Shown here one piece after another: positions 7,373-53,400 of a stretch of DNA of 64,000 nt; the first letter of the stretch is position 1; each line of letters begins with the position of its first letter. The DNA is from Bondarzewia mesenterica. Its lineage: Eukaryota; Basidiomycota; Agaricomycetes; Russulales; Bondarzewiaceae. Below the pieces are notes generated by a model that did no database searches, was not told where the DNA came from, and was given only the letters and a program-made list of their open reading frames with translations. Made by a program: the position numbers and the translations under genes. Location of the stretch: positions 1 to 64,000 of the forward strand of contig SGPL01000016.1 of assembly GCA_004802705.1 (NCBI GenBank), read 5' to 3'.

Positions 7373-7608
7373 ACTTAGATAAGAAGGAATGCTTGTTGAT
7401 GTGTCGCGTTTGTGTTTTTCTACCCTACAGGACACCGTTGAATAGGGTCTCGCTCTCGACTGGTTTCGTAATCTCATTGTACTTTTGCGACCCACATTCT
7501 TTCGGAACTCTCAATTCTCATGATACAGGGAGGATGGGTATGAATAGCGGCACCCGATATGAAGAACACAAAGTAAAGAGAAAGAACGTATGTGCTGTGG
7601 CGTACGGG

Positions 7609-8510
7609 CTACTTCCTCTTCTTTGACTTTTTGGCCGACTAACGAATGAGTTTGAGCACTGCCGTAGAATTGGCATGGGATAAGGGATACGCACTTTGGA
7701 TGGTGTACGAGGAGAAGAGTTCGGAGTGGTGTGACCTTCCAAGTCACTTGAGATAATAGAATCTGCGCCTGCGCTGGGAGATGGCGCGAGTCCGTTAGAT
7801 GAAGGAGAGGCTGGAATCTTTCGTGGTGTGGGAGCTGGGCTTGCGGGTGGGGATAAAGGAGCGGCGACATGCTTTGCTTTCTTGCCGCCGCCATACTTGA
7901 GCTCTGGAATCCCGACAAGTGGGTCGATGATTTCACAGTACAGGAACCAACACGATACTTACCATTCTGAGTACGAGCGTGAGGAATGGACTCGAAGATT
8001 GAACGCGATTTTTCGTTTCCGATCATCTCGCCCGCGGATTGGAGGATGATTTGGCCCCAGCCCTCCACGAACGTGTTGGCTTCGAGGACAACCTCCATGA
8101 TCTCCGCCTCGAGCTCCTTCTCCGCCGCAAGGAGGCTGTTCCACAGGTCATCCCCTACCGAACCTTTCTGCAGAAGGTTTTGCAAGGCGGGTTTGTCTTC
8201 GCGGAGCCGCATGAAGCGAGTGATGTCCGTCATGGCTCGTCGGATGAGGGCGGCTTTCAGCAGTATTTCGGGAGTTGGGGGATCTGATTTCTGGAGAAGG
8301 CTGACATAGACATCGCGTTCAACGTGACGAGGGAAGTAGGGTTCAATCCGCTTGGCTGCATGGCGGTACGCGCGGCTGTAAATATTAGCTTTGCGTTAAG
8401 AAACGTGTGGGGGACGAACTTGCGGTGCGTTTCCTGTAATATCGACCAAATATGAAGAGACTTCCAAAGAGAATGACAACGTAGAGTACGGGGACCAAGA
8501 CAGATGCCAT
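7609..8510 (-). CDS. SEC66: Sec66-like subunit of the ER post-translational translocon (Sec62/63 complex)
   Basis: The start ATG ends at 8510 and gives MASVLVPVLYVVILFGSLFI, a single N-terminal membrane segment followed by basic residues (GRYYRKR), as in Sec66/Sec71. Downstream exons read PYFPRHVERDVYVSLLQK, EILLKAALIRRAMTDITRF, LLQKGSVGDDLWNSLLAAE and LEAEIMEVVLEANTFVEGW, all characteristic of Sec66. The C-terminal part after the conserved block is Pro/Ser-rich. A last short intron (donor GTGCGT, acceptor CGTTAG, about 55 nt) yields a lysine-rich end, SKSAKKSKKRK, before the stop at 7609. In yeast Sec66 helps the Sec61-Sec62-Sec63 complex import proteins after translation. The gene converges on the deubiquitinase, with 236 bp between stop codons. 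Confidence 0.88.
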
Positions 8511-14540: not shown

Positions 14541-17101
14541 ATGAAAAGTTTTAAGAAGACCTTGGTATTTATCGCCCACTTTCTTCCTCATATACATTTC
14601 CTCACATCTTGCCGCTATCAAGCTCAACAGGAAGGACTCGAGCTCGTCCAAGAATAAGGAATCCAAGACCACTTCCAGCTCAAATTCATCTTCCGCTTCC
14701 TCCACTCACACCGTCCCCCCTCCCAATACCTCGAAGCCCCTACCGCAGCCAGCGTCTTCGGCTGTCGCCAGTCTCTCCAATCTTGCCGGTAACAACAACA
14801 GCAATCACTCCTTGCCCTCCTCACAAAACTCTTCTCCTACCACTCGCTCCATCTCTCCGGCCAATTCCTCCGCAAGCAATGCAGATCGGAAATATTCCTA
14901 CCACGACAAGACCCAACCTGCCCCACCTATAGTCGTAGTTAGCGCGGAGGCAAGCAACGAACCCGTCACCCGTCCAGGCTATGCGTCTCCAGAAAGAATG
15001 AATCTTGGTCTTGAGCCCGGAGGTTCAGCTACGCCCCCCCCGCGCAGGTACCCTGAACCGCCTGCGGTCAGGTCCCAAGGACACAATCCCTATTGTTGGG
15101 AAACCTCCCCGGAAGCAAAGAAGCAGCCGCTTTGTCGTCACCGAGAAAGTGGAAATTGAGCGACTTCCACCCTTCCTGGGTGCGTTTCTCACATCATCTT
15201 GTAACATCGTTCCTGTAGTTGCTGATCCCTCTTCTCAGAAACACCGCCCAGCGAACGACCGCAGCTTTTCCTCAAGAAGCTGCACCAATGCCACGTGCTA
15301 TTCGATTTCAATGATGCAAGCTCAGAACTTAAGGGAAAGCAGATCAAAGCGCAGACCCTGCACGAGATGCTGGAATACATCACCACACAGCGCGGTGTTA
15401 TCACTGAGACCGTATACCCCGAGGTGGTCAAAATGGTGCGCACAGAATATTCCATATCAAACCCTATAGCATTGACCCCGGTATGATAGTTTGCAACCAA
15501 TTTGTTCCGATCCATACCTCCTCCTGTCAACCCCACGGGCGATGCTTTTGACCCTGAAGAGGACGAGCCGGTTCTCGAACTTGCCTGGCCGCATCTGAAG
15601 ATCGTATACGAATTTTTCCTTCGGTTTGTGGAAAGCCCCGATTTCAATACGAACCTTGCGAAGCGATATATCGACCAGAACTTCGTCCTCAACCTTCTTG
15701 AGCTCTTTGACTCGGAGGACCCAAGGGAACGCGACTTCCTCAAAACAACGTTGCATCGTATCTATGGCAAATTCCTTAATCTCCGTGCTCCCATCCGGCG
15801 CTCGATCAATAATGTCTTCTATCACTTTATCTACGAGACGGAACGACACAATGGTATCGCGGAGTTGCTAGAGATCTTGGGATCAATTATCAATGGCTTT
15901 GCTCTGCCGTTGAAAGAAGAGCACAAGGCTTTCCTCATGCGCGTCCTCATCCCACTGCATAAAGTCAAGAGTCTGTCGATGTATCATCCACAGCTGGCGT
16001 ACTGTGTCGTCCAGTTTTTGGAGAAGGATGGCTCTTTGGCAGAGGAGGTCGTGTTAGGCCTGCTCAAGTACTGGCCCAAGGTCAATTCGCCAAAAGAGGT
16101 CATGTTCCTGAGCGAGGTGGAAGAGATTCTCGATGTCATCGATTTTGGCGAGTTCCAGAAGATTCAGGTTCCTTTATTCCAGCAGCTGGCACGCTGTATC
16201 AACAGCCAGCACTTCCAGGTGGCCGAAAGGGCGCTGTATTATTGGAATAACGAGTATATTGTTAATTTGATGAGCGACAACATGGCGGTCATCCTGCCTA
16301 TCCTTTTCCCGGCCTTGTATCAAAACTCGAAATCTCACTGGAATCGGTGAGTACGCCGGATTTTTGTGCGGAGGTTCTTGACGTTCATCATAATGCACAG
16401 AACAATTCATGGCATGGTCTACAATGCACTCAAGTTATTCATGGAACTCAACCCGGATCTCTTTGCGGAGACCACGCAGCATTACAAGCAACGGAACATC
16501 GAGTGTGTTCAATTTTTTTTTCCTACATGTTGCCATCTCATCCGCCGTCTAGGGAACGGCAGCATGCTATTGAGAAATATGAAGCGTGGAAGAAACTTCG
16601 CGAGAAGGCTATTCAGAACGCAAATGGACATTTGCCAGAGGGCTTCGACGAGAGCGAGCCAATGCCGCCGCCACCGCCGCCTCTAGTGGACGATGCAGAC
16701 ATCATGGATCTTTCTCTCGAGTTGAACGCAGTGACTATCAACGGAGAGGTGCCGCACGATCTAGATGATAGTGGAATTGAGCGAGTGCCGATGGCAGATC
16801 CTGGATTGGATGTCAGTGCGATGCAGCAGCTGCACATGTTTGGCTGAGGGATTCACTGACGTGCGTTCCGTGCAGCGACCGTTACCAGAAGTTGGGGCCG
16901 AGTCACCTGTAGCTCAAGGACCGCATGTCCGCAGAAAAAGCGTCCTTCCAGGTTAGCTTCGATACCAATCTAGATGTGAATTTTGTTCAGAGTCTGATAC
17001 ATGCTGCCATTGGTGCGACAGTCGACCCTACAGTACTACGTGACCTTCAAGCGCACAAGAGCCTAGAAGACACGCTACATGGACCCGGCGGGCCAGCGTA
17101 A
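14541..17101 (+). CDS. RTS1: PP2A regulatory subunit B, B56 (B') family
   Basis: B56 subunits select substrates for protein phosphatase 2A by binding LxxIxE-type motifs. Yeast Rts1 and fission yeast Par1 act in stress response, cytokinesis and centromere cohesion. The first exon encodes only MKSFKKTL; splicing to the acceptor ATCAAG gives [15 protein letters not shown] and a ~130-residue Ser/Pro-rich disordered region. The core begins [18 protein letters not shown] and [14 protein letters not shown] and continues with helical-repeat blocks such as [40 protein letters not shown] and [18 protein letters not shown] stop at 16845-16847 (after MQQLHMFG) is avoided by an intron with donor GTCAGT at about 16811. 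The added exons read [20 protein letters not shown] and SLEDTLHG, matching the conserved C-terminal tail of animal B56 proteins, and stop at 17099-17101. Confidence 0.93.
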
Positions 17102-20683: not shown

Positions 20684-23600
20684 TTAATTTGTTCCGTTGC
20701 CAATGTTTCCATTACCACTAACGTTGCTCTTCAGGACACCTGCCTCGACCATTCCTCCGGCAACCGGACGAGTCAGCTTGTTGGCACCTGCAAAGGAAAC
20801 ATGAACGTTCCGTCGTCGTCAAGATAAACCAAATAACATTCAGGACTGACCGTTCTTGACAACGAACTGTGCACTTGCGAAGCCATCTAAGTTCGGAAAA
20901 CCTGGTAGCCAAACAAGTAAGCGCCCGTAAGGCACAGAAGCAAAGAGATGAGGCTGACTGATATTGTTCATGGCATAATACGTCGCCGTGAGCGTGGACG
21001 GGTTGATCGTTAGCGTGAAGAAACCGCGGTAGGACCCCTCGCTCCATTGCAGCTCCTCGTTGACGGCCACGTATACCTCTGAGATAGCATTGGCTGCGGC
21101 GGGCTGGATATTGGTTCCGAAGGAGGACCCGGATGTGACCGCCGTTCCAGCGAATTCGACGCCTATAGCGCCTTGTCCCGTTGTAGGATCGTACCTTGTT
21201 CCCATGCTGTCAGCTGGCGCTTCTGCTGTCGGAGGCAATGATGCCATTCTGGTCAACGAAAGCCTACCTAGTATCATTTGGATCTGCGGAGCAGGGTGCA
21301 AACGCGCTCAGAGAAGATCATCTGGCGCCACAGGAGACGCTGATGCAACTTACGGGCGAGATCAGATGCCCAGTTAGCGTGACTGTCTCCTGAAAGGATG
21401 ATGGTGTTGTCAATTTGATGCTGATATAGATGATCGAGGACTCGTTGTCGGTTTGCGCGATAACCATCCCAGGCGTCCTATGACCAGACATAATGAAGGT
21501 TTGCGTCAAGTTGTCAGCTTCGGAGCAACAGACATACCAAATCGTCTGTTGAGCGGAACCCCGAGGATCAAAATATAGCTTCAAGCGAGCATCAAAAGGA
21601 GAAAGCTTACAGGAGCCGGACTCATTCAACTGGGTGAACACGATTTGCTGACTGAGTAATAGATACCGACCCGTCAGCATCCAACAGCTCGGAGTGGTGT
21701 GGGTACTGTTAATTTTACCCTACAACGCGCCAAATGGCACCTCGGGATTTCGACTCGGAAAGGCTATCGAAGAACCCTTGATAACGCCATTAGAGACGTG
21801 GATCTTGACTCCTGGACAGAAGGATAAAATACATTTTTCTTGGGGGAAACCCATGAGGGAGCGATTGGGGAACGCCGCGATCGTGTTCACATCTTTGAAC
21901 CACAAAACAAAAGTGAGGAGGGTCCCTGAATGCGATCCAACTCACCATACTCACATTCTGTAATTTGCCAAGGATGATGTCAATGATTGATCTCCAAATA
22001 TCCAGAAGTATTCAACTCACCCGTGTTATAGTAAACCTGTCAGCTTTTATATGAGATTCAGACCACATAATCCATGAGAAAAAGCTCTTACGTCCGTGAG
22101 ATCACGATCATACTGGCCTGTGAATATCGTCGTCAGTATCTGTAGTCCATCAACAAATTTTAGGAAACGTACGAGTGTCAAGCATCGCCAAGTCCTATGC
22201 AAAAAGTTAGCCAGGGTCTCATCCGGTGCGCCGTGAGCGCTCACCAGAAGCTTTCCGATTTGAAAATTGCGCCAAATGCGAAGTTTGTCATCTGTGGCGA
22301 CCTGTCGGATGGGCATCCACTCATGGTACGCTCGGACAGCAGCTAATTTTCGATCGGTGAAGCAAGCACCGGAGGGGGAGAAAGAGCATCCAGTTGCCGT
22401 GTCATTGGAATCGGCTGTCCCCGCTTTCCATGAGTTGTCAGCGACCTGTTCGATTATCAACAAATGATTGGCAGGCCTTGGGCAGGCCTTCAGTGCTTCA
22501 GCTGTGCTGACTCACCTCGTGGTCGTCCTGGAATGGCCAAGAGTCTGTTATCGGAAAGAAAAAAGAGCTCGACATATCAACTTACCCTATCCAGCAATGT
22601 CAGGGTCGTGACAAAAAATCAGCTAAGGGAAATCTCAAAATCATGGTAACTTTACCAAACAGTGATCCATGGCGCGTTCTGGTGGGCAAATGAGAGACTC
22701 GTGTCTGTCCTGTACTGGTTCAGACGCTGGCGATAATCATGAATGGTTGCGAGTTCTCGTCCCAGGACTTGTCTCCCAATGCTTGCTCTATACCAGATAG
22801 TTGAGAGATATGCATCCAATGCGACGTAGGCAGAAAAAAAAATGCACCCATTCCCCAGAGATTCATAGATCTTCGGTGATGATCCCCGATGTCAGCAGTG
22901 GATGACAGTGGACAAGTGAGACCTGCGCATCACTCACGTAGTCCCCGAGATGGATAAATACGTCTGCGCTCGTGTTGTGAGCAGCGAAGCCGTAAGCGTT
23001 AAAGTAGCCTGGACGCCCGAGGTCACACCGCATTTTAGTCGAGCCGTATTTCATGAGCGCTGCGAGACGTGACGGCATGTACTGAGTTGAGCTCACCTGC
23101 TTGAAATTGTGAACAAGAAAACACAGCAAGGGTCAGATTTTTCCCTCCATTGACCTGATAAGCTGGTGCTGTTGGCTACTTTAGTTCATATATGACTGTA
23201 CACGGTTTCATAGATTGCGCACTATCTGGGCTTGGCAGGGTCCGCGTTGCGCCCGTGGGGCTAATGCTCGAAGGATTGGTGCAGTCAGCGAAGAAATACC
23301 AATATTTCGTGTCTGCTTTCAATCCCGTGGCTTCCACCTTCACTGTGAAATCGACATCGTACGATGTGAAGGCTTCTCCAGAGTCAACGGGTCGGCCTGA
23401 CAAAGAGGGAGAATTGAAGATCTCCCACGAGACGCAAACCGGAACACTCTGATCAGGTTGCGCTGCAGAGCCGTTCGCCATTGGGACAGCTCGGGTCCAA
23501 AGCAGGACGGATGTGTCGAACGGGTCACCCTTAGGGCATGTGTAGCAGAACTTCATGGGGATAATCTGGAACACTCACACTTGCGACTGCGTGATACAGT

Positions 23601-24052
23601 AAGTGTTGTTAACCAACCCGTAACTTTAATTAAATAGAGGCAAAAAGAAAAGTTAATCCTACCAGAGTGTGTGAAGTTCAGTCCTCCGCTCCATATGAAT
23701 GGGCTCTGTAAGATTTAGTAGTCAGGACACGCCACGGAGTAAGATGTTATAAATTACGAACATTGCTGAAGTCGGCACCATAGAACGTCGGATAGTGTTC
23801 ATCCTTGAACGTGCTTGCAGATATCACCTGTCTGCGAGCATTCCTGACATGTCGTTCATGTATTTCGCGTGTATCTCGTGAGAACTAATTCTCAGTGGAT
23901 TAACGGCCATTGAGTATGCACTGTAAAGGGAGGATGATCGTGCATACCTGCGGACGATCGTGGAAGGGCGAACGGTACACCAGATTGTGATCCAATAGCG
24001 TCATGGCAGAAACAGCAGAGCTGCACACCAGCAGCAAGAAGTTGAACTTCAT
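20684..24052 (-). CDS. phoD: Secreted PhoD-like alkaline phosphatase / phosphodiesterase with micro-exons
   Basis: A signal peptide (MKFNFLLLVCSSAVSA) begins at the ATG ending at 24052. Conserved PhoD blocks follow: GGLNFTHSVASGDPF, VLLWTRAVP, GYFNAYGFAAHNTSADVFIH joined to LGDYIYES, NAPWITVWDDHEVADNSW, DLAMLDTRQYDRDLTD, YYNTEYV, RSLMGFPQEKWFFDS, DLDAWDGYRANRQRV, IILSGDSHANW and HPNDTRYDPTTGQGAIGVEF. The metal-binding Asp/His of GDY, DDH and GDSHANW are all present. Several motifs form only after joining exons of 1-26 nt (23579-23586, 22586, 22516-22527, 22173-22194, 22092-22117, 22021-22036, 21955-21957, 21538-21545, 21268-21283), each between GT-AG introns of 49-76 nt. The junction near 23750 and the one near 23200 are uncertain. 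The tail ends NVSGNGNIGNGTN. Such enzymes hydrolyse phosphate mono- or diesters outside the cell using Ca/Fe; substrate not predicted. Confidence 0.88.
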
Positions 24053-32976: not shown

Positions 32977-35900
32977 ATGGCCTTCTCTGAGGTTGATGCT
33001 ACTGCTGGACGTGCTTCACCTGGAACTTTACATCATCGAAGTCGACCATCGTCGCCGGTTTCTTCTACTTCCTTGAACCATGTTCATATTGCGGAAGCCT
33101 TGCTCAAATCTGAGGATGGTGGGGCTACCTTGGATCTGAGCCATAAGAACCTGACCGATGTTGGCGAATATGGCGCACATGAATTGGCTGTAATTGGACG
33201 CGAGGATAACCTGGAGGATGATAGTACAGTTCTCAGGTGAGTCTAGCAGTGCTGACGGCTCAATCCTGTTATGGGTTTTGTAGGGATCGTAAGGCATTTA
33301 TTGAAGTCTTCGCGTGTCAGGATCACTCTTGCGAACAATCGACTAGCGACACTTCCCATGGCTTTTGCAGTTCTATCTCGCCTTCGGTACCTAAACTTGA
33401 AGTGCAATTCCTTTACCGTGTTTCCTGAAGTGGTAAATTTCTGATAATCTCTGCTTCTCGAAATGATACTCATGAACGTCTTTTTTCAGTTGACCATAAT
33501 GCCGTCTTTGGAAATTCTAGACATTGGTCGGAATAAAATCAAACGGCTCCCTTCCCAACCAGGTTCCTTGGCCAATCTTCGAGTATGCTCACATCATCAT
33601 ACATGGATATGCACAACGTGATTGAGCTGCTACCAGGTTTTCTCCCTGTACAAGAACAAATTGACCAGGCTCCCAGCATACATGGTGCAATTCACGCGAC
33701 TCCACATCCTCAGAGTCGAGCAGAATCCTTTAGAGTGGCCTCCAAAGTCTGTCATGGAGGCTGGCTCTACCGAAAGTAATGCATCATCAAGAAATTGGAT
33801 AATGGGGCTGCAACAGTGGATGGCAGAAAATGGTACTTCATCGGAATATCGGAAATTGAGCGATGATTCCATCTTAATCAATGACCCTGCACGAGGGAGG
33901 TGAGTTTAAATTCACCGTGTTTTTCAACCCTTTCCCTTATCCTGCCCCGAGTGCGCCTAGAGACGATAGTCTCGACTATGACATACGTTCGCCGGACTAT
34001 GACCATGGCCAGACTCCTCATGCTCGTTCCTTTTCTGCCATGTCTGATCTGTCGGTGTACTCGGCGGACAAACCTGAAACGTCGGTTGGGCCCTTTGCGC
34101 TGTCGCCTCGTTTAGAACGTCCACCGCCTTTACATCTTGGTTCTCTTCCGCTGTCTGCTCCAAATGGCTCATCCGTATCCCCGTCGCGCTCGCCCGATTC
34201 CTACCTGCCGACTCCTGAAGAATCTGTCTCTTCAATGGATGACGAGACTTTCAAGTATTCCGTAGAAGCACAATCGCACGCACGCAACGCCTCGTATGCT
34301 GGATCCAATCGGAACGTTTCTCTATCGAGGCTCACAGGGAAGAAAAGCCTTCCCGAATTGAGGCCCGCTAGATTGCGACTCGATTCTGGCGCAGTAAACG
34401 CAGGCCTTCCCAGTGTTCCTCTAGGTGGGCAAGCTAATTTCAGAGCAATTTCAAAGGCCAACAAGTCCATGGATCAGTTTTCAATGCCTTCACCGATCTC
34501 CCAACGGCAGGACTCATCGGAGTCCGATACTTTCTCCATTCCTTCTCATACAGCCCGTCCCTTCGCCCAAGGTCCTGTGTCTGCATCGCCTACTTCTTTG
34601 GATCACCCTGTCCCGTCAATGGACGTCGAACGCAATTCCTATTTTCGTCGGTTTTCCACTATTCCATCATCCACGATTTCCAAAACTATTCCGACATCCC
34701 TTCTTAGCCTCGTGGATGCGGTTCGAGGTATTCTATTCGCCGTCTCTCAAGTCTATCAAACGCTTCAGCATTACACTGTTTACGCTATCGACGAACGTCT
34801 CTCTTCTGTTTTGCTTAAAGTACTCGATCCAGCTAGTAACTATATGACCCAACTCATCAATGCGCTGGACCGTTTTGATTCAATGAGTCGAAGAATGTTA
34901 CCGACTCCTGCGGTCTGTCGTGCAGTTATCGAGAGTTGCAAGGACAATGTCACTGTCTTTGGTAAGGCAGTTGGAGTGCTGGCTCTCCAACTGAAGGTCC
35001 TTGCCACTCGCGATGACGTACGGTACACGAGACAGATGCTGTTGGTCCTTTACGGTGCCACTGCCGAGATCTCCAATGCATGGCAGTCCATGACTCCCCA
35101 TATTGACGCCGTCGAGCCTCTACTCCGAGACCACCGTCCACCGCCGGTAGGCAAGCCACGGCCCAGCCAATCCTCGACCCATACTACTTTGGTCAACGCA
35201 TTGGATACATCCATATCTATACCTCCTATCGCTCCTGTCCTCGCTCCTCCACATACCCCTCGCTCACCGGCGCATAGCCCTGTAGGGAGGACTCACATCG
35301 CTCGCCGTCATGCAGGCTCTTTCAGTTCTAAAGATGTGGAGATTGGCAGATCTTTACCCTCCCACGTCGAACTTCCAAGCTTGCAAGGCGGATTAGCCGC
35401 CAGGACTGCCGTAGACATCGCCACTCCTCGAGCAGCGTTGCGTCAGGCTGGTTTCTTCGTTCCAATCACGACGACTGTCCCGACCCCTAACAAGCCATCA
35501 TCTAAGAGCTCGAAGCAGGCCTGGGATTCCCACTCTCGGCAAGGATCGCAAACATCGTTGCAGGGGTCGTCGTCTGGGTCGTCGCCGTCAATCTCGGGGC
35601 GGACGCCTATGTTTGAACCCCCCGCTGACCTGAGCACTCTTGTCGACAAACCAGCCATTGAGGCCATGTCGAAGGCGGTCGAGGCTGCTCCACCCGTCTG
35701 GGATATGCTGGACGCGATGCTGGCCGATCTCCCAGAGAATCGAGAGGAAATTGAAGAAAGCTTAGGCAAAGCGCAAGCAGTGACTCGTAATCTGAAGGAG
35801 GGCATAAGTAATATTCAAAGTGACGTGCAGGTGGACAGAAAGGACTTGAGAGACCATGCACGTCTCTTCGTCAAGGTATACTGCTCATTATTGTCATACT

Positions 35901-36343
35901 TCCTATGTCTGTACTCATCTATTCTCGCTAAGACCGTCGTTCAATTGTCGACTACAATTAAGACATACGGAAGTTCCCATCCTTTATCCTCCGTGTTGCG
36001 GAGCAACATGGTTACATTGACCAACGCAACAGAGGAATTCGTCATTCTCCTGCACGTTTCGTCGTTCTCTTCTCCCACCACCCCTCGTCCGTATTCGCCC
36101 ATGGTCAATGTCGCCATGCCGACAAATAACAATGCTCTCGGAACCGATGAAGGCCGACTGGGTGCGAGCCTCTCTCGGAGTCGCAGTGCTCAAGCAGTTG
36201 CAACAAAACCAAAGTCACCCATACCAACAAGGGAGCTACCCCACAGTGCACTGCCGAATCAGACATTTAAGATCTCGACCCCTCCACGTCGGATGAGGAG
36301 GGAGCTCTTGTTGGCCGCGGACGACGCGCTGGACGGGTATTAA
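32977..36343 (+). CDS. SOG2: SOG2-like leucine-rich-repeat protein of the RAM signalling network
   Basis: In yeast Sog2 binds the NDR kinase Cbk1/Kic1 module that controls polarised growth and cell separation. The start ATG at 32977 gives [20 protein letters not shown]. Leucine-rich repeats follow, starting with [20 protein letters not shown]. An intron (33239-33328) joins STVLR to [20 protein letters not shown] and [17 protein letters not shown]. Further repeats are [31 protein letters not shown] and [15 protein letters not shown]. The large last part, about 800 residues with one or no intron, is Ser/Pro-rich, then contains the conserved helical SOG2 domain ([60 protein letters not shown]). 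LRRs followed by this domain is the SOG2 architecture. The C-terminus [18 protein letters not shown] is acidic. Confidence 0.88.
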
Positions 36344-46444: not shown

Positions 46445-48666
46445 ATGAGCTGGCTAGCATCGCTCTTTTCCTCAAAGTCTTCCAGTAACAGGAGGAGTCA
46501 GGCTCTAACACATACTCGGGACGCTTTCTCTCTCCCATCACACGTTTTTTCCTCCCATCACGACGCCTACAACGCAGACTCGCTCAGTACGCCGGACCCT
46601 GAATCTGCTATGAGCCCGACATACACATACCCACCGCAGTCGAATCGACCAGGCCAGTATGACTACGTGCCTACCGGGTACGCTTTGTTCCTCATTTTCG
46701 GTACCAACATCCTTTCTCATCTCGCATTCCCCCTCAAGACGATCCCGTCCGACCTCTTTGCTTCCCCTACACAACACTCCTCTCTCGCCACTACCACCAT
46801 ACCCTTCATTAGAACAAACTTGGAACCGTTTTCGCAATTGGCTCTCCAATGAGTACCCTGAACTCGGCGACACCCTCAATTATGGCATACTACCACAGGA
46901 CCTTGCTAACATAGAGATGCAGTTTGGTTTCGCGTTACCTCAGGCCGTCCGCGAGTCGTACCTTGTCGTCGATGGTCAAGAGGCCGAATCATCGGCAGGG
47001 TGCTCAGACGGTCTATTTTACGGTCTGACGCTACTTCCTCTGGAAGAGGTACTGGACGAATGGAGGTTCTGGAGGGAAGTTGATGATGACCCGAGCACTG
47101 GTGCCCATCCTAAGTTGCGGGAGGTCATGCAATCTCTTCCTCCAGGTTGGGTTCGAAGAGAATATTCACAGCGTGGTTGGATACCGCTCATCACGGACAA
47201 GGCGGGGAATTATGTAGGCGTTGACTTGAATCCTGCAGAGAGCGGCTCTGTCGGCCAAGTCATAGTCTTTGGACGTGATTTCGACACGAAGGTTGTTCTC
47301 TGGCGTGGGGAAGGCCCCGCTGGTTGGGCGCGGTGGTTGGCCAGTATCGTGGAAGAGTTTGAGAGCGGCGAGGGCTACGAGCTTGGCGGCGCTAATGAGA
47401 GTGAGGGCAGTGATGATGGCGTGGGCTATGAGAGCTACTTCTTTGATGGCACTGGACGCGGCTCTGGCGATGGGAATGGCGAGGCTGGAGCCGGTGGACT
47501 GCGCTTGTCGGGCGAGTACCGGGGTTGGAGTGTCTTCGAGGCGTGGGCGGATAAGAGTATCAGGAAATGGCACGAGGCGGGCTTGATTCCTGATACTGCG
47601 GCGCGACATGACAAGGGGAAGGTAAGGCAATTTATTTGATCCAATGAGGACAAGTATAACGACACTTTCTTTGTAGGCACGCGAGAGTTTAGGTCCCAAC
47701 GTTCTTGACTTCGCCAAGGCGACCGTGAACGGCACGGGTGCCGAAGTTCCTATTCCTGTCTTTGCGGACCTCAACGATGAGGATGTCAAACCCTTGCAGC
47801 CCCTCGAAGAGGTTGCAGAGCCCGTGGAAGCTGCGACGACCAGACAATCTTTGCCTACGATTTCCGTTACTAAACCTCCAGCGCCATTGCCGGTTGTGCT
47901 GCCCACGCAGAACGACATTCTACCATCCCCCACCAGCCCAGATTCAGGTACTTCATCGCCTATTGACCTGGAGAGTGCTCGTAGCCCCATGATGCGCGAA
48001 GTCGACGTTGAAATTCCACTGACAACATCAAGGGCACCGGTATCGCCGCTGCCTCCCGCTAGCGAGGAGCCTGCGGCTGCGCTTCAAGAGCCCGCTCTCG
48101 TTCCCTTACCTGTATCGCCTATCACATCACCGCCTCCCCCATCGACAGAGTCAATACCACCCCCAGCAGCGGCTGCGCCGCTCTCGGATATCACGGACTT
48201 ACTTGCCGATTCTGCCCCCAAGCTGGAAGCTACCCCCATACAACCGTCGCCTGTGACTCCTTCCCCGAAATTGACACCTCCACCCGAACCCGATGTAGAG
48301 CTCCCTCCGCAAGCGGAGAACGAGGCTGTCCTTGCGAACGGTGAGCAAGTGGCCGAGGAGCCTGCTCCAATTGAGGAACATCCTGATCCTGACACCACCA
48401 TTCGTCTTGTTGGTGGAGGAGGTCTCTCTGGAACGGCCGAAGAGTCCCATTCGACACCTGCTGTGGAGGAGGTGCATGTCGACGTCGCTGCCGACACTGA
48501 AAAGGCTGAAGTCGCATCTATCACCTCGCTCCAGTCGAATGACTCGCGAGCGTCTAAGAAGACCGGACAGCACGAGAAAAAGAAGAGCGTCTCCTCAGGA
48601 TTGAAGAAGTTTGGACACCTGGGCGGGGGCAAGCGGAAAAAGGACTTAGTCAAGGAGGCTGCGTGA
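46445..48666 (+). CDS. KNR4: KNR4/SMI1 homologue, cell-wall synthesis regulator
   Basis: Yeast Knr4/Smi1 coordinates cell-wall glucan synthesis with the Slt2 MAPK and calcineurin pathways. The start MSWLASLFSSKSSSNRRSQA opens a Ser-rich leader. After an intron ending TTCATTAG at about 46829, the SMI1/KNR4 domain reads TWNRFRNWLSNEYPELGDTL, NYGILPQDLANIEMQFGFAL, PQAVRESYLVVDGQEAESSA, GLFYGLTLLPLEEVLDEWRF and GWIPLITDKAGNYVGVDLNP. The last exon (47677 onward) is a long acidic Pro/Val/Ala/Glu-rich region, then a basic end KKSVSSGLKKFGHLGGGKRK. Folded SMI1 core flanked by disordered arms is typical of fungal Knr4. The donor of the first intron is my best choice (GTACCA), not certain. Confidence 0.88.
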
Positions 48667-50438: not shown

Positions 50439-53400
50439 TTAACGATGCTTGTACTTTGCCTCGTTCTCGATGCGAACATTAGGATCCATTGAATTATGGA
50501 GGCCCAGCAGGGCCTTGCTGACGGCTTCACTGGCACCGATCATGGGCTTCAAGACTGCAATGGGCACAGCCCTGATGACCGCACGAACGGGGCCCTAAAA
50601 ATATGTTAGACATTGCAACGGGATCATGACGTTCGACGCACCTCGTTGCCCGACCGTTCATACACCTCCATAGGAACTGCCAGAATAGTCTGTGCGGCAG
50701 AGTTAAGGTTCCGCCTCAAACTCGTGTACGCCGACTGGATGCCTTCTTTCACATCGATAGGTTGTTCAGCATATTTGCTGATAAGGTCCGCCGTCTCCCC
50801 ATCAGCCCATTCTTGACCAGCTTCTTCGTCGTCCCGGTCCAGCGGGCAAACTGGCACAGCCTCTGCAGTGACCGACTCGTTGAACTGACTCCCAAGGACA
50901 TTCTCGGCCTGTTCGAGGATGACCTGTGTCCCGGTCGCTAGCCGTGCACCTAGCTTTACGGCTTCCATTGCAGTCGTCTGTACGAAGGCCTTTGTTCCTT
51001 TCTGGACGCCTCGCACGACACGGCCGTCCTTGCGGTATTGAGCGATAGGTAGTAACACCAGATCTGCCACGCCGGACCCCACGTTCACCACAGAGCGTAT
51101 GGGAGACACACCAGAGATGACATCGGCTAGTTGTGTAGCTTTTACATCGGGTGTCCAAAGGTCGTTTAACATATCGAAGAACCGCGGCCAACCAGTGATC
51201 TGCAAATCGTCAGAAACGGACTCTGAAAGGATGCTGGTATACAACTTACTCCCGACAGCGTGATGTGTCGCAGTGTCATTTCGGCACCATCAAAATGGAA
51301 GAAATTCATGAGCTCAATGGTCCTACCCTCACGTAGAGCTCTGTAGTCCACGCGGCGTGGCTTGTAATCCAACTTGAGTCCAACTGGAAATACTTCTGCT
51401 TGCTCTGCAACGAACGGTGAGACGCTGATGTCTTGTGCGGTATCGGGAATAGGAGACGTACGGAAATAAATCTCGTTATTGGGTGAACCAGAAGGGGAAG
51501 GTGCATTAGAGTCTTTGAAACTGAAAAATTTCTTCAAAAAGTCTAAGGCGTCTTGATCGACGTGCAGCCGCAATGGAAGAAGCTTGGCCTATGATCATCA
51601 TCAGTCAGGGACCGAATCCAAGAAATGATCAACGCCTCCTTACACGTAGCCTGGCTTCTTCCGAAGGATTTCCCTGGACAGGGCGAACAGTACGTAGCTC
51701 TATGCGGACCATATTGGACCCTGTTTCTCGAATGTTGCCCCGAGAGTCTGAATGCAACGCCGAAAGGAATTTTCTCCATGTCGAAGTCTTCACATGATCA
51801 AAGATCTCAACGTCCTTGATCGTAGCAAAAATCCTGGACACAAGCTCCTCATCCGGTCGATACTGATCCACCTCTGCATCCAGCCCAAGCAAACGGAATT
51901 CAATGCTCGGACCCCTTGCTCTGGTAAGCCGTTGCCCGCTGATCCGAGTCGGTTTTGGTGCCGCCTTCCCATGAGACTGGGGTCTCAGCGACTGCCAAGA
52001 ACTTTGCGTTGCTGTCTCCACGTCTTCTTTCAGCTCTTCGTCGATGGCCGCTATGAGTGCCGCGGGCTCCAATTCGTCCAGATCCTGTTCAAGGCCGACG
52101 TAGACGGAATTGAAAAGGAGCGTGCTGGTCTCATCGACGTTCGGGTCGTACGTCTGACCACTCGCCACAAGCTGTCTGATCTTGGCCAGCCTTCGCTTCA
52201 TTTCTTTGATCTCGTTTTCAATAGTTCTGCGTGTTGAAGCCCAGTCGTAACCATCGTATAAGAAGAGAGTGACTCCTGCACGGTGGATTCGAATGCGGTC
52301 CTTGACTTCTCCGAGCCTACACAAGACAGTGAGCACAGGAGGATAGAGAGAAGGATCACAGGACTGACTGCGGAGCTTCTTCCGATACGGCTGGTAGGGT
52401 ATCAAGATAGTTCTCGACAATCCGAATACCTTCGGGGCGAAGCAACCTGATCGTCTCTCCTCCAACTTTGGAAATGAGACCTTGTCCTCCGGACATCGCA
52501 GCAGAGCTGTCTGGCAAGACGTCTCCCTCTGAGAAGTCTTCCAAGTCCTCATCGGCGAATTCACGGAGACCCGCCGCTGCGCCAAACGAGGAATCCAGAT
52601 ACTCAAGATTGGACGGAAGATCGTCATTGATCATGTCTGGCGCTGCTCCGACTTCAGGGAGTCTGTGGAAGGCCTGCTCATCTATCGACGCTGTGACAAC
52701 TTGTGAGAGAAATCAAAGCCGGTGCATATCAGTGCTTACCCATGAGCGCACGATGGGAATACGTCTGCGTCGAAATATTAGTCGGTTCCCTAACGGGCGG
52801 CGGCAGGGGCCTGGATACGTAGTGAGTTTTGAGAATCCTGATGAAGGTGTACAGACGGACGGTTCATCACTCTGTTTACTGAATGCAGTTCCAAAATCAC
52901 TGCCAAAGGCACCAAGCGCGGTCATGGTGTCTGCGCACATATGAAGCCGCAGGTCAACGCCGTTTACAGACACCTGCGAAAATTGTCAAAAGAACCGAGA
53001 TGGCTTTCAAAACAAAATACTGCGCCACCTCAGAACTAGAAGGCTCTCCGTTGACGAGCTTAACGAACAAACTTAAGTCCGCTATCTCAGCTAGCAGAGC
53101 GTATCCAGATCTCTGCGAGAACAAAAATTAGAATGTGTCCGTAAAAAATTGAAAATCTGGTTTTAACGACAAACCTTCCAAAACCTGATGCCTTTTGTTC
53201 CCATCAGGTTTTGACTGCTTATTTCCTCTTCGGCCGCCCGGTGATCATCCGTCAACAAGACCCCCAATGCTGGTACGGACAGGTTGAGACTCGTCTCCGT
53301 AGAGTCGCCGACTAGGTCCGTAGAAAATTCCAATTCGCCGATGTGAAGTGCCAGAGCGCCAGGATGCTTCGGGGCAAGCAGACGGACAGACCCATCCATA

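Follow-up and report, generated by a model that had tools for sequence, protein, structure and literature searches.

The window analysed in this study, a stretch of 64,000 nucleotides from the bracket fungus Bondarzewia mesenterica (Russulales; contig SGPL01000016.1), harbours a PhoD-type phosphatase gene on the minus strand at positions 20684-24052. From ATG to stop, the gene was modelled with 25 coding exons and 24 GT-AG introns, encoding 620 residues; exon 16 and the start of exon 23 were set from homologues. The protein predicted by this corrected model matched the Pfam families PhoD (PF09423; 349 bits, profile positions 1-342 of 343) and PhoD_N (PF16655; 77.5 bits). It also aligned with 2YEQ, a solved alkaline phosphatase D (E = 1.4e-75), with PWITVWDDHEVADN of the predicted protein opposite PWVVTWDDHEVEN. 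We take the 2YEQ chain to be from Bacillus. Both domains, together with the WDDHE motif, mark the putative product as a PhoD-type phosphatase, its activity likewise being predicted. The neighbouring frames of the window were ordinary fungal genes by Pfam, with matches to Sec66 (7511-8395, minus strand), PP2A B56 (15490-16350, plus strand), SOG2 (33878-36343, plus strand), SMI1/KNR4 (46614-47639, plus strand) and ATG2 (51629-52630, minus strand).

Five of the 25 exons of the PhoD gene are 12 nt or shorter (1, 3, 8, 8 and 12 nt). The two 8-nt exons, exon 4 (23579-23586, minus strand; TCGCAAGT) and exon 20 (21538-21545, minus strand; ACGATTTG), were placed from the sequence and the gene model. 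The 3-nt exon 16 (21955-21957, minus strand; AAT), which is flanked by introns of 63 and 62 nt, was placed from homologues and the model; the protein reads YYNTE^YVNT across it, and homologues read YYNTEFVNT or YYNTDYVNT at this position. Exon 16 is missing from the public models of several relatives (YYNTDVNT). The public model of the gene in B. mesenterica, EW146_g707 (P0007), shares long identical blocks with the predicted protein, lacks exons 8-10, keeps pieces of introns and wrongly lengthens exon 16. It has lost the W of WDDHE and the 51 residues preceding it, and its PhoD score is 175 bits, starting at profile position 92, compared to 349 bits for the corrected model. So badly broken a public model might suggest a pseudogene, in which a missing frame would be without meaning. 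However, the frame of 620 codons runs through all 25 exons without an internal stop, the PhoD domain is full, and the breaks in the public model stem from faulty annotation. The probability of a pseudogene is close to nil, and this reading was dropped.

The feature of main interest lies within the codons of the WDDHE motif. Exon 9 (22656-22787, minus strand, 132 nt) has the 3' end ATC ACT GTT TG (ATCACTGTTTG), which stops two bases into the Trp codon. It is followed on the same strand by intron A (intron 9; 22587-22655, 69 nt, GTAAAG...GGATAG), by a single G at position 22586 (exon 10), which is the third base of the TGG codon, and by intron B (intron 10; 22528-22585, 58 nt, GTAAGT...TTCCAG). 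Exon 11 (22516-22527, minus strand) consists of 12 nt, GACGACCACGAG, encodes DDHE and aligns to the WDDHE of 2YEQ; intron 11 (22446-22515, minus strand, 70 nt) separates it from GTCGCTGAC. At 22591-22580 the minus strand thus reads GATAG-G-GTAAGT, with one base between the 3' AG of one intron and the 5' GT of the next. A branch-like CTGAC is present in intron A, its A lying 13 nt from the 3' end, and a branch-like GATAAC is located in intron B. The boundaries of the exons, the lone G and the introns agreed to the base with those of the original prediction, as did the GT-AG ends and the two branch-like elements that it had named. In leave-one-out scoring of the sites of the PhoD gene, the donor and the acceptor of intron B ranked 2nd and 9th of 24, and those of intron A ranked 22nd and 23rd of 24. 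By this small model of 24 sites intron A is weak, which counts against the one-base exon.

An enumeration was carried out over positions 22720-22420, with the downstream 70-nt intron removed and HQNAPWITVWDDHEVADNSW as the target; it took in every single intron of 30 nt or more that has GT or GC and AG ends, as well as every pair of such introns. In this exhaustive enumeration no single GT/GC-AG intron restored WITVWDDHEVADN, and exactly one pair did, namely 22655-22587 with 22585-22528, which leaves the G at 22586 in between. No canonical splicing solution other than the one-nucleotide exon exists at the WDDHE junction. It had been proposed that the frame reads WDDHE only with the lone G, and that this is the metal-site motif of PhoD; the first point follows from the enumeration, with no one-intron and one two-intron canonical solution, and the second is upheld by the alignment to the W-D-D-H-E of the solved 2YEQ. 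GC-AG introns and other exon pairs were excluded by the same enumeration. A zero-length recursive splice site, with an AG directly followed by a GT, was also rejected, as one base intervenes and skipping of the G loses the frame.

When the intron ends were left free, two single blocks of 127 nt gave the peptide, and their ends were GT...CA or TA...AG, on which grounds a single non-canonical intron was set aside. The twin-intron arrangement that the original prediction had offered as an alternative meets the same difficulty. The two nearly back-to-back introns would be removed in succession, as in stwintrons (PMC5639578, PMC12403724). A stwintron, however, is removed as one contiguous block, for which the peptide would require GT...CA or TA...AG ends. 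Moreover, introns A and B each have their own complete donor and acceptor, no element of an external intron is interrupted, and the G is retained in the mRNA under the canonical solution. A nested stwintron, or a single intron with non-canonical ends, is therefore regarded as extremely improbable at this junction.

The other 22 introns of the gene are 49-88 nt in length (mean 62.7, SD 9.1). Introns A (69 nt) and B (58 nt) are typical of them, whereas one intron of 128 nt would exceed the mean of the others by about 7 SD. Such a single intron is what an error in the assembly would imply. If one base had been deleted, so that in the true sequence the intron is preceded by TTTGG, or GACGAC by an additional G, the region 22528-22656 would hold one ordinary intron of 128-129 nt. 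The GG run beside 22656 is a plausible place for such a deletion, the sequence comes from a single assembly, and the sites of intron A are weak. Apart from the length of the resulting intron, the well-placed AG-G-GT would then be due to chance. To evaluate this, the interior of the 128-nt stretch was dinucleotide-shuffled 20,000 times; both sites had to equal or surpass the weakest real sites of the gene, and both pieces had to be at least 45 nt long. An AG-G-GT of this quality was obtained in 0.06% of the shuffles and an AG-N-GT in 0.2%; the lone-G arrangement is more than chance.

The consequences of mis-splicing were deduced by translation. Omission of the G gave WTTTRSLTTH..., with a stop after residue 332, inside exon 12. 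Retention of intron A introduced a stop immediately after the Trp, and retention of intron B gave WVS followed by a stop. Skipping of the 12-nt exon alone kept the frame and deleted DDHE. As each of these events breaks either the frame or the motif, the mature enzyme would need the exact removal of both introns.

Three homologue searches were performed, with the first gene model (a 627-residue version), P0116 and P0073 as queries. The best 120 of 7983, 5773 and 4808 matches were retained, and together represented 141 different proteins; P0116 and P0073 are altered models themselves and may favour similar ones. The 141 proteins comprised 130 named models, from genome projects or UniRef, and 11 unnamed proteins on contigs of at most 9,722 bases. 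Among the matches listed, a clean WDDHE was present in 31 of the 130 named models, 73 were altered at the junction and 26 presented wider damage (a strict count, in which P0032, with WWDDHE, was entered as altered). All 11 unnamed proteins listed had a clean WDDHE, and the difference from the named models (11/11 versus 31/130) gave a Fisher p of 6e-7, which serves as a guide since related species are not independent. A loose count of the first search (best 120 of 7983) gave 8/8 intact unnamed proteins versus 31/112 intact named models, P0032 being among the 39 taken as intact. Six of the unnamed proteins (P0008, P0038, P0089, P0111, P0123 and P0127) are on contigs of 1,978-2,855 bases, which have no room for 24 introns, and these are therefore probably spliced transcripts or cDNA. 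The other five, on longer contigs, could be either cDNA or genomic. The 31 intact named models may represent genes from which an intron was lost, or models built on transcript evidence.

This survey bears on the assembly error considered above. At least 73 of the 130 related named models are altered at the same junction, and one and the same read error cannot recur across species and projects. The one-base sequence error that the original prediction had allowed for is thus very unlikely.

The alterations in the 73 models were of several kinds, all counted among the matches listed. In 24 models V and W only were lost (PWIT-DDHE or similar), as expected if a gene finder that could not place a single base used the GT of the Val codon as a donor, since GTTTG plus G amounts to 6 nt and the frame is kept. 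Thirteen models had lost six residues (PWITVADN, PWITVSDN or similar), equivalent to 18 nt, or 5 + 1 + 12. Nine had gained exactly one residue between W and DDHE (C, C, Y, Y, Y, L, Q, W and W), as expected for a splice site moved by four bases, one plus three. Two or more residues were gained in 16 models. All seven of the inserts of at least 15 residues ended in Q beside DDHE and six of the seven began with V, which is what read-through of intron B (GT...CAG) would give; this pattern by itself is no proof of intron A. The VW was kept in 11 models and followed by other residues, with no DDHE. Among the 26 listed models with wider damage, nine (P0052, P0056, P0057, P0060, P0062, P0096, P0108, P0115 and P0117) still presented PWI beside a changed junction; in the remaining 17 the upstream exon was missing or garbled, or the region was absent.

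Two models may preserve traces of the missing base. The model of Lactarius indigo reads PWITVW-TIMRQ-VSDN, in which, by back-translation, TIMR looks like the product of GACGATCATGAG with the frame shifted by one base behind ...TTTG. The Agrocybe pediades model P0130 reads TMDHGL-DDHE, in which TMDHGL looks like an out-of-frame reading of the end of the upstream exon, ...ACCATGGATCACGGTTTG, with DDHE attached directly. Judged from these protein sequences, the two look like mirror images of each other, each a trace of a direct join that omits the G. A complete TGG at the end of the upstream exon would, in addition, allow an in-frame skip giving PWITVW-VADN. Such a product, with VW kept and a clean skip of DDHE to VADN, was found in none of the 130 named models among the matches listed, also under a wider pattern, which counts against a complete TGG in these genes.

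It might be argued that the lone G is real in B. mesenterica and that the altered models of relatives reflect ordinary errors near the 12-nt DDHE exon, in which case the one-base exon may be recent and local. The indels of the first search (best 120 of 7983) give this argument some substance, as the other micro-exons attract them too: the junctions of the 3-nt exon had indels in 72 and 71 of the 120 models, those of the second 8-nt exon in 39 and 30, and those of the first 8-nt exon in 23 and 22. Indels were also collected by apparently length-variable stretches, at residues 107-116 and 486-492, the latter holding intron 22 and presenting indels in 105 of the 120 models. The one-base exon, with indels in 79/120, was a peak and not the highest one; the median over all positions was 3/120. 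It stands out because conservation of the motif extends to 2YEQ and because the changes so often sum to one missing base. The 31 intact named models among the 130 listed would also be compatible with a recent and local exon. Mistakes confined to the DDHE exon, however, would hardly account for the 24 listed models in which VW only is lost and DDHE kept, for the 13 in which VW is lost together with DDHE, or for the lack of the in-frame skip among the 130. In addition, the models that have lost VW belong to the Russulales (Gloeopeniophorella), Agaricales (Moniliophthora), Polyporales (Trametes versicolor) and Hymenochaetales (Coniferiporia, two different proteins). A recent and local exon is decidedly unlikely on this evidence. 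The model of Neolentinus (Gloeophyllales) carries an insert at the junction.

Position 22586 is very probably a real one-nucleotide exon, and the G would be included in the actual mRNA. Judged from the protein models, it is also quite probable that the exon is common to several orders of Agaricomycetes; the distribution of the altered models suggests at least the Russulales, Agaricales, Polyporales and Hymenochaetales. This suggests a feature of several orders, where a lone case had been seen in the original prediction, and a one-letter exon that may be old and widely missed in annotation. The practical cost is considerable, as 99 of the 130 named models among the matches listed, including EW146_g707, misread the active-site motif, and structures, alignments and ecological surveys that use these faulty phosphatase models inherit the error.

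One-nucleotide exons are of a kind already known. In the literature found, proven nuclear examples were reported from two plant genes and one Fusarium gene family. In CYP621A of Fusarium, a G exon within AGGGT is documented by RNA reads, and that report describes it as the second known case and the first from a fungal gene (PMC12940212). The PhoD gene of B. mesenterica resembles it closely: both are fungal nuclear genes with a lone G in AG-G-GT within a conserved protein motif, the combined intronic stretch is more than twice the usual intron length, and nearly all public models of CYP621A are likewise reported to be wrong at the motif (PMC12940212). The Fusarium exon is described from a single ascomycete genus, with 20 orthologues listed, and is the central base of a Gly codon in PKG (PMC12940212). 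That of B. mesenterica is in a basidiomycete, provides the last base of a Trp codon within a metal-site motif and apparently extends over several orders. Splicing was confirmed by RNA reads for CYP621A (PMC12940212), whereas the Bondarzewia exon is known here from sequence. In Arabidopsis APC11 a one-base exon, A333 in a 422-nt intronic stretch, was proven experimentally (PMC4674806). The one-base exons of APC11 and VPS55 are reported to be well conserved in land plants and missing from reference annotations, and in some plants VPS55 transcripts with and without the exon occur (PMC8831610). Exons of this size are reported to escape read mapping under default settings (PMC8831610). These are plant genes and different ones, but there too one base is needed for the frame and was missed by annotation, and it is conserved in a large clade (PMC4674806, PMC8831610), as the Bondarzewia exon may be, so that they provide a precedent for deep conservation combined with missed annotation.

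Stwintrons share with the arrangement proposed for Bondarzewia two short U2 introns that are removed consecutively by intron definition, and a single G can decide the frame in them as well. They differ in that a splice element of the external intron is interrupted by the internal intron and, as described, no base in between is retained (PMC5639578, PMC12403724), whereas introns A and B of the PhoD gene are each complete and the proposed mRNA retains the G. One retained base between two introns is likewise reported for fungal mitochondria, where the introns are of group II and not spliceosomal (PMC12308204), and for placozoan cox1, which is also organellar (PMC5436844). No nuclear one-base exon in a basidiomycete was named in the titles and abstract openings of the literature found, which was largely open-access. 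What is unusual in the present case is the likely age of the exon, its breadth and its place in an active-site motif. Single-nucleotide exons probe the lower limit of the spliceosome, and a basidiomycete, metal-site case spread over several orders would offer a natural series on the origin and persistence of such exons.

We propose that 22586 acts as a constitutive one-nucleotide coding exon. The two separate short introns, A and B, would be recognised by intron definition and both removed, so that the lone G completes the Trp codon of the metal-site motif W-D-D-H-E as its third base. The AG of intron A at the same time forms positions -3 and -2 of the donor of intron B, and binding of U1 to B should compete with the second step of A. 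As the two sites sharing this AG could not be fully bound at once, removal would have to be stepwise. Removal of B first is somewhat preferred, a view that we hold loosely, because B has the stronger sites and those of A are among the weakest.

For Fusarium, loss of a base followed by rescue through a cryptic AGGGT was proposed (PMC12940212), and a gain of intron A by the same route would fit the PhoD gene equally well. In a more far-reaching scenario, the exon would predate the divergence of the main Agaricomycete orders and would have persisted as an obligate splicing checkpoint, through which the phosphatase could be tuned, for example to phosphate supply, by unproductive splicing. Such tuning would be feasible because skipping of the G, or retention of A or B, brings a stop no more than a few dozen codons later and far ahead of many of the remaining junctions. 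We consider this scenario rather unlikely as a whole.

The 33.1-Mb genome was scanned for the motif CTGAC/CTAAC N4-26 AGGGTRAGT, with the reversed pattern as a control. The motif was not enriched, with 9 + 5 = 14 sites compared to 30 (16 + 14) for the reversed pattern. No convincing one-base exon was present in the frames around 12 of the 13 other motif sites, which took in one of the two overlapping C64 loci, in a narrow search judged by eye. An origin of introns A and B as duplicates of each other was not supported, as 5.5% of shuffles attained their local alignment score. Apart from this gene, the genome gave a single PhoD match, a distant paralogue on contig C13, which is not a direct orthologue. 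In this paralogue (G000:C13:9500-16500, about 3820-3690, minus strand) a single exon carries TACGACGACCACGAG uninterrupted, the W position being unsplit. The stretch contains scattered N, and by eye an intron is located directly after the DDHE codons, in the same place as intron 11 of the PhoD gene.
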